A model generated the notes under the pieces. The model ran no database searches and was not told the origin of the DNA. It saw only the letters and a list, made by a program, of their open reading frames with translations. Both the position numbers and the translations under genes were made by a program. Positions 20,733 through 47,321 of a stretch of DNA of 48,321 nt are shown here, piece by piece. Location: the NCBI GenBank assembly GCA_021463195.1, contig JAJTXZ010000031.1, positions 1-48,321 of the forward strand, in the 5' to 3' direction. The stretch is from Anaerolineae bacterium. GTDB lineage: Bacteria > Chloroflexota > Anaerolineae > UBA4142 > SHND01. Positions within the stretch are counted from its first letter, which is position 1; every line of letters begins with the position of its first letter.

Positions 20733-20816
20733 ATTCGCTCCATCGAACGGGATAACGTTTGAATGTTGCCGCGAGTATAAAGGTCATTGAATTTAATTCA
20801 AAATAGCGCTGCTTTT

Positions 20817-20910
20817 CTGGTGATTGCCTGGATTTCCAGACCCCACGGGTTTTCGAAAACCCGTGGGGTCTGGAAATCCACTACGTTTTTGAGATGCGAA
20901 TAATCACCAA
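20817..20910. mobile_element. 94-bp MITE-like palindromic element, copy A
   Basis: The element starts CTGGTGATTGCC and ends AATCACCAA, near-perfect terminal inverted repeats. CTGCTTTT occurs directly on both sides (20809-20816 and 20911-20918), an exact 8-bp target-site duplication. Inside, 20829-20880 is a perfect 52-bp palindrome with a TTTTCGAAAA centre. Copy B at 47220-47313 has the same length and lies in opposite orientation. There is no coding capacity, so it would need a transposase in trans. It is inserted just upstream of the glyA -10 box. Confidence 0.88.
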
Positions 20911-20928
20911 CTGCTTTTGACTTGCGTA

Positions 20929-34940: not shown

Positions 34941-34990
34941 GTTTGGTCTAGGATAAACGACCCTTTGGGTTTCCGAAAACCCTTTGGGGC
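34941..34990. repeat. Palindrome-type repeat copy downstream of the ABC operon
   Basis: 34941-34982 matches 47001-47042 at 38 of 42 positions by eye, including GACCCTTTGGGTTTCCGA. In this copy the right arm reads CCCTTTGGGG, so the middle three positions no longer pair with the left arm and the palindrome is partly broken. Outer inverted ends like those of the other copy are not seen. Confidence 0.65.
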
Positions 34991-35052
34991 TAACATAGGT
35001 ACAATGAATTTTTTACGCGCGACGCGCGCGATTCTGTGATAAAGTGGACAGA

Positions 35053-46548: not shown

Positions 46549-46989
46549 ATGTATCAGAGACTGGTTCTCGTTGGGAACTTGGGGCGCGACCCCGAGATGC
46601 GCTATACCCCCAACGGCACTGCCGTGACCACGTTTCCTGTCGCCACAAGTCGGCGTTGGACGGATGCGTCTGGCACGTTAAAAGAAGAAACCGCGTGGTT
46701 CCGTGTTTCGGTGTTTGGCAAGCAAGCTGAAACGTGCAATCAATATCTTGCCAAGGGGCGCAAAGTATTGGTTGAAGGTGAATTGGCGGTGGATGAAAAA
46801 ACCGGGGGGCCGCGCGTGTATACGCGCAAGGATGGCACAGCTGGAGCTTCATTTGAAGTGCGCGGCTCTACCGTTCGTTTTCTCACTTCGAAAAGCGAAG
46901 CGGAGAGCGGCGGCTCTGGCGGCGCAAGCGGCGTGACTCCAATTTCGTCGGACGCGAATCCGATGGGGGAAGAGGATTTGCCGTTCTAG
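46549..46989 (+). CDS. ssb: Single-stranded DNA-binding protein
   Basis: 146 aa. The OB-fold is at residues 1-112 (YQRLVLVGNLGRDPEMRYTPNG, split by the usual beta hairpins, then ETAWFRVSVFGKQAETCNQY and KGRKVLVEGEL). A short Gly/Ser linker leads to the acidic tip EEDLPF, the docking peptide for replication and repair proteins. AGGAGG lies six bases upstream of the ATG. It stands alone and not in the usual rpsF-ssb-rpsR cluster, so it may be a second ssb copy; that cannot be decided here. Confidence 0.95.
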   Translation: MYQRLVLVGNLGRDPEMRYTPNGTAVTTFPVATSRRWTDASGTLKEETAWFRVSVFGKQAETCNQYLAKGRKVLVEGELAVDEKTGGPRVYTRKDGTAGASFEVRGSTVRFLTSKSEAESGGSGGASGVTPISSDANPMGEEDLPF

Positions 46990-46995
46990 CGCGAA

Positions 46996-47074
46996 TTCCG
47001 GTTTGATCTAGTCTAAAAGACCCTTTGGGTTTCCGAAAACCCAAAGGGTCTGTCCTCTAAATCAAATCGGAAAC
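46996..47074. repeat. 79-bp palindromic repeat downstream of ssb
   Basis: The ends are inverted: TTCCGGTTTGATCTAG (46996-47011) against CTAAATCAAATCGGAA (47057-47072), with two differences. Inside, AGACCCTTTGGGTTT (47019-47033) pairs with AAACCC-AAAGGGTCT up to 47052. 42 bases match 34941-34982 at 38 positions. It lies seven bases after the ssb stop and may also end its transcript. No flanking duplication was found. Confidence 0.7.
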
Positions 47075-47219
47075 TGGTCTAGCATCGCTGCGCGGTCTAG
47101 CGCTCGAACAACATGAAATCGCATAGTCCGCATTCTCAAATACGGCGTTATCAAGTGGAGTTCATTTGCGAACGCCTTTTTACGCAGGCGACCTCGCAAT
47201 TTCACCAAGTTACAGTACT

Positions 47220-47313
47220 CTGGTGATTACCCACATCTCGAAAACGCAGCGGATTTCCAGACCCTAAGGGTTTTCGAAAACCCTTAGGGTCTGGAAATCC
47301 GGGCAATCACCAG
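47220..47313. mobile_element. 94-bp MITE-like palindromic element, copy B
   Basis: It starts CTGGTGATT and ends AATCACCAG, perfect 9-bp terminal inverted repeats. ACAGTACT flanks both ends exactly (47212-47219 and 47314-47321). The core 47250-47301 is a perfect 52-bp palindrome. Aligned in reverse to copy A (20817-20910) it differs at 12 of 94 positions with no gap. Six of those differences form three compensating base pairs in the palindrome. Confidence 0.88.
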
Positions 47314-47321
47314 ACAGTACT

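Follow-up and report, generated by a model that had tools for sequence, protein, structure and literature searches.

Between the divergent starts of a dTDP-4-dehydrorhamnose 3,5-epimerase-like gene (PF00908; 20274..20732, minus strand) and glyA (serine hydroxymethyltransferase, PF00464; 20992..22275, plus strand), the window, that is, the whole stretch of 48,321 nucleotides analyzed here, contains a perfect palindrome of 52 bp (copy 1; 20829..20880). Its two arms (20829-20854 and 20855-20880) are 26 nt each, are 100% complementary and meet without a spacer. A second perfect 52-bp palindrome (copy 2; 47250..47301) has arms of the same length (47250-47275 and 47276-47301), again 100% complementary and without a spacer. 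Folded as single-stranded DNA, the two 52-mers gave z = -11.2 and -10.5, and chance alone would not be expected to produce a perfect 26-bp palindrome in 48 kb. The inner 34-bp core of copy 1 (AGACCCCACGGGTTTTCGAAAACCCGTGGGGTCT; 20838..20871) carries CCACG as its variable five-base segment, N5, and that of copy 2 (47259-47292) carries CTAAG; neither palindrome, nor the core of copy 1, is assigned to a strand. The initial annotation had described stems of 26 bp per arm with zero mismatches in both copies and three compensated pairs between them, and both descriptions are confirmed: CAC/GTG against TAA/TTA accounts for two of the pairs, and an outer T-A against C-G for the third. It had also placed a third copy at 47019-47052. 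The complementary TTT/AAA reported there in the variable N3 is present, but the core lies at 47018-47051 and its centre is the asymmetric TTTCCGAAAA and not TTTTCGA. A fourth core (GACCCTTTGGGTTTCCGAAAACCCTTTGGGGCT; 34958..34991, plus strand) has lost pairing in N3 and folds poorly; it is a decayed core, probably derived from a copy of MITE-B, described below.

The 94-bp carrier

The two palindromes of the window are mutually inverted, and the sequence that they share extends beyond the palindrome itself to 94 bp. Both are centres of what is, by its anatomy, a non-autonomous MITE-like element, here called MITE-A, because it has terminal repeats, 8-bp target duplications, a constant length and no coding capacity. 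Copy 1 (20817..20910, plus strand), delimited by its repeat ends and target duplications, has the ends CTGGTGATTGCC...AATCACCAA and lies between two 8-bp copies of CTGCTTTT (20809..20816 and 20911..20918, plus strand). Copy 2 (47220..47313, minus strand, inverted relative to copy 1) lies between two copies of ACAGTACT (47212..47219 and 47314..47321, plus strand). The Anaerolineae (Chloroflexota) genome from which the window comes, referred to as the home genome, yielded 76 core-bearing copies, 59 of them with a MITE-A flank; as copies were gathered by pattern search, the number of recognizable MITE-A copies is at least 59. Fifty-five could be delimited, with the terminal repeat CTGGTGATTRCCC at one end and GGGTAATCACCAG at the other. 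Of these, 49 are exactly 94 bp long, 15 have exact 8-bp target duplications and 7 more have duplications with one mismatch, whereas 2000 random pairings gave 0 exact and 8 one-mismatch duplications. Several copies are located at contig ends and the record is fragmented (143 contigs), as might be expected if repeat collapse or chimeric joining during metagenome assembly had created the palindromes; on the other hand, the target duplications are intact, the flanks are unique and the same architecture is found in many independent genomes, which makes such an artefact very improbable.

MITE-A resembles MITEs in its shortness, terminal inverted repeats, target duplications, many copies and lack of a gene. 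It differs in that a parent transposase was not found, and in that one conserved palindromic centre occurs within unrelated MITE ends. The search for a transposase bearing MITE-A terminal repeats found none; at two distant pairs of terminal repeats (L072 and L073, in genomes G014 and G004), a limited search revealed no evident transposase between the ends. A sigma-70-like promoter tends to lie a short way downstream of a MITE-A copy, both across the home genome and in other genera (L153-L171, L075-L077), and a -35-like hexamer usually begins 9-13 bp outside one end. A promoter-like score was obtained for 42 of 110 MITE-A flanks as compared with 8 in shuffles, and 35 of the 55 delimited copies have a promoter-like site on at least one side, suggesting that MITE-A insertion is directed by promoters.

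Pairing and decay in the home genome

Decay was examined in copies gathered by the right flank alone, 59 of which carry both flank and core. The 51 exact cores of the home genome are biased toward paired stems, since the search pattern demanded the rest of the stem, and they were excluded from conclusions on decay. Among the 59 flank-chosen copies, the stem is fully paired over 25 bp in 19 and the 34-bp core in 35, while 40 have at least one unpaired stem position, amounting to 106 unpaired cells. Variants paired on both sides occupy 45 cells. The initial position of N3, at which the two main subfamilies differ (C or T), contributes 22 of these; the other 23 cells, of 13 kinds, compare with 1.4 expected from the one-sided rates, a ratio that is indicative, since it takes no account of relatedness between copies. 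The initial annotation had held that the palindrome is kept perfect, either by selection of the structure or by repair between the arms, and had proposed a covariation test on collected copies, with unpaired changes at random stem positions counting against this view. The outcome is divided: perfect stems are a minority and unpaired changes are common, so that not every inserted copy retains a perfect palindrome, but the paired changes are far above chance. The paired excess is real, and it is compatible with selection and with repair alike. Pairing matters, though it is not kept in every copy, and the mismatched copies show that whatever matches the arms acts weakly on resident copies. The number of unpaired positions does not rise with flank divergence (rho 0.09), within a range limited by the choice of copies by flank.

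The main N3 variants are CAA (26 copies) and TAA (18 copies). Intermediates exist: several copies are CAA/TAA mixtures, and a half-changed counterpart of TAC/GTA, namely TAC/TTA, is present in L041. CAC/GTG, the form of copy 1, is unique among the collected copies. Because CAA and TAA predominate, what separates the two window copies is in part subfamily ancestry; their difference is best explained by origin from different paired variants (CAA-like and TAA-like) followed by later changes. Divergence is 2.6% in the inner core as compared with 10% in the outer arms, and falls to 0.7% in the centre TTTTCGAAAA; the low divergence of the inner core suggests direct sequence recognition as well as pairing. 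These palindromes form a natural data set on how palindromes stay perfect, with dozens of different centres set in an unchanging frame and with decayed copies as well as half-changed intermediates. Such a set could tell selection for structure apart from repair by template switching, a question that arises generally for RNA stems and for palindromes in bacteria.

The wider palindrome family and its carriers

The inner 34 bp of MITE-A is one form of a general palindrome, AGACC-N5-GGTTT-x-AAACC-N5'-GGTCT, composed of two inverted AGACC-N5-GGTTT units, each of which could fold into a small hairpin whose loop contains N5. The home genome has 123 copies of the general GGTTT form, which gave few matches outside this genome in a phylum-wide sample. 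The GGTTTT form occurs in 21 of 120 other Anaerolineae genomes and the opposite arrangement of the units in 5 of the 120. The class-wide patterns held the AGACC/GGTTT frames fixed, so that frame variation was invisible to them. In other phyla, 9 copies are present in one Cloacimonetes genome (0 of 30 relatives) and 6 copies in one Flexibacter genome. Reversed-pattern controls returned zero matches in every search. No match to the palindrome was found in viral contigs, which were searched for phage carriage. The strings were absent from the open-access texts searched as exact strings, and by this search the palindromes have no earlier description.

The middle 5 bp of the palindrome varies freely, yet is nearly always complementary between the arms. 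Across genomes, N5 and N5' are complementary in some 121 of 135 copies, which include roughly 32 distinct N5 (raw count 125/141, before the duplicate of one genome entered twice, as G066 and G137, was removed), whereas shuffling within genomes left 59 of 141 complementary on average and never more than 73; these covariation counts are inflated by shared ancestry. In nearly every N5 the first base is a pyrimidine and the last a purine, and therefore each arm is itself a small near-palindrome. The reverse complement of an N5 in the same frame is also present for 28 of 38 distinct N5, as compared with 7-11 expected. The recurrence of the frames across genomes and the 0.7% divergence of the centre would fit a DNA-binding site at which a dimeric protein recognizes AGACC/GGTCT together with GGTTT/AAACC, or else attaches to a cruciform. 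However, a spacer that matters by length only needs no complementarity between the arms, and the complementarity of N5 makes this explanation improbable.

Three carriers whose ends are unrelated have the core at their centre in the home genome: MITE-A, the CTAG-bounded MITE-B and an element with ends near TATAGACCTTCAG. The MITE-B copy in the window (46990..47078, plus strand; CTAG at 46986-46989 and 47079-47082), within which the third core lies, is situated just after ssb (PF00436; 46549..46989, plus strand). The asymmetric centre of MITE-B is found in both orientations, CCGA and TCGG (this copy and L080, L215, L217), reflecting either an inversion of the centre or two separate single changes of TCGA. 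In other genera of Anaerolineae, MITE-A terminal repeats enclose different palindromic centres. The family also suggests that one palindromic centre may be reused by unrelated small transposons. In other genomes the core stands alone, often near a stop codon and in some cases within a long reading frame that remains open across it. A bolder view, which we consider doubtful, is that the AGACC-N5-GGTTT double palindrome is independently mobile across phyla, its centre being a freely drifting self-complementary tag matched by arm-to-arm copying, and that it has been captured by at least three unrelated MITEs and is able to enter genes in frame.

In G137, general palindromes are often separated from a stop codon by no more than about 30 bp, and this position, like that of the MITE-B copy directly after ssb, would suit a functional RNA hairpin (terminator, attenuator or mRNA stabilizer) with pairing selected in transcripts. 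Against this, copy 1 is situated between divergent genes in a region with no terminator-like site, and the sole promoter-like site facing the minus-strand gene (20801-20774) begins beyond the palindrome; MITE-A copies tend to lie upstream of -35 boxes; and the palindrome has no Rfam match, the search of the window returning tRNA-Gln only. An RNA role is unlikely for copy 1, and as an account of the family as a whole we give it little credence. Assignment to intrinsic terminators was rejected, as copy 1 lacks the combination of a GC-rich hairpin and a T run. Some tail-to-tail forms of the palindrome end in TTTT, and around position 2041 of L053 the core seems to provide the TAA stop codon of the neighbouring frame, with a T run after it.

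Matching of the arms and known repeat systems

At inverted repeats, template switching both homogenizes the arms and inverts the spacer (PMC8604942, PMC8794818). The repeats described in these studies share with the present palindromes arm identity, compensated multi-base changes and spacer inversion; the present ones differ in belonging to a dispersed family whose sequence frames are fixed. In two copies, L180 and L183, the MITE-A palindrome is interrupted at its centre by one and the same 19-bp insert, in opposite orientations relative to the flanks. The arm identity of N5 and this inverted insert argue for exchange between arms, although the insert could have been inverted by recombination between copies instead. 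If template switching or gene conversion between arms were keeping the inserted palindromes perfect in place, without selection, the paired changes beyond chance, the inverted insert and the presence of 28 of 38 distinct N5 also as reverse complements would be in keeping with such a process, which is documented (PMC8604942, PMC8794818). Nevertheless, unrepaired mismatches persist in 40 of the 59 flank-chosen copies, and none of 16 mismatched copies is an intermediate in which a single arm has its N5 inverted, so that repair in place as the only process appears unlikely.

We favour, with moderate confidence, a REP-like double hairpin that was captured by MITEs, in which matched arms would result from hairpin-dependent spread together with template-switch copying between arms, and decay would follow insertion. 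The propagating form would be a folded single strand, and copies with matched arms would spread better. Template switching between the arms during replication may generate both paired changes and inversions of the centre. After insertion, most copies would no longer be maintained and would accumulate unpaired changes. The many unpaired changes carried by inserted copies are the reason for preferring maintenance during propagation, or at the birth of a copy. The function, mobility and transcription attributed to these elements are predictions from sequence.

REP/REPIN sequences with RAYT genes (PMC3733652) likewise consist of short hairpin units with variable loops, occur as inverted pairs, often just after genes, and reach high copy numbers, and the present palindromes are also short, dispersed and mostly extragenic. 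They differ in that the GTAG or CGTC tag is absent here and the 15-bp units begin with AGACC and end with GGTTT. A link to RAYT was rejected: the unit is lacking at 29 of 30 RAYT-type (Y1_Tnp) loci, and the sole unit is about 1.1 kb from the gene. Membership in REP/REPIN was also rejected, as two defining features, the tag at the stem base and a RAYT gene flanked by the repeat, are lacking.

Some palindromes are in frame within long reading frames (L052, L064, L068), in likeness to the Rickettsia palindromic elements (RPE) described in PMC3733652. The present palindromes differ in their size of 33-40 bp and their occurrence in Anaerolineae and a few other phyla, and the likeness drawn here is one of anatomy. 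Reading frames run through several palindrome copies, as judged from the frames themselves, and the cores at L064 (942-975), L068 (2830-2863) and L052 (324-357) are read in frame as DPKGFRKPLGS. Of the alignments to PDB entries at the insertion boundaries in genes, the one for L068 matched adenylate cyclase type 10 at the level of a loop only, and the others were uninformative. The frame around the core in L064 is a Y1_Tnp-type transposase. Around 1561-1595 of L099, a related palindrome, CAAACGTGACAGGTCT-CCA-AGACCTGTCACGTTTG, is situated in a 483-residue open reading frame adjoining a RAYT-type gene.
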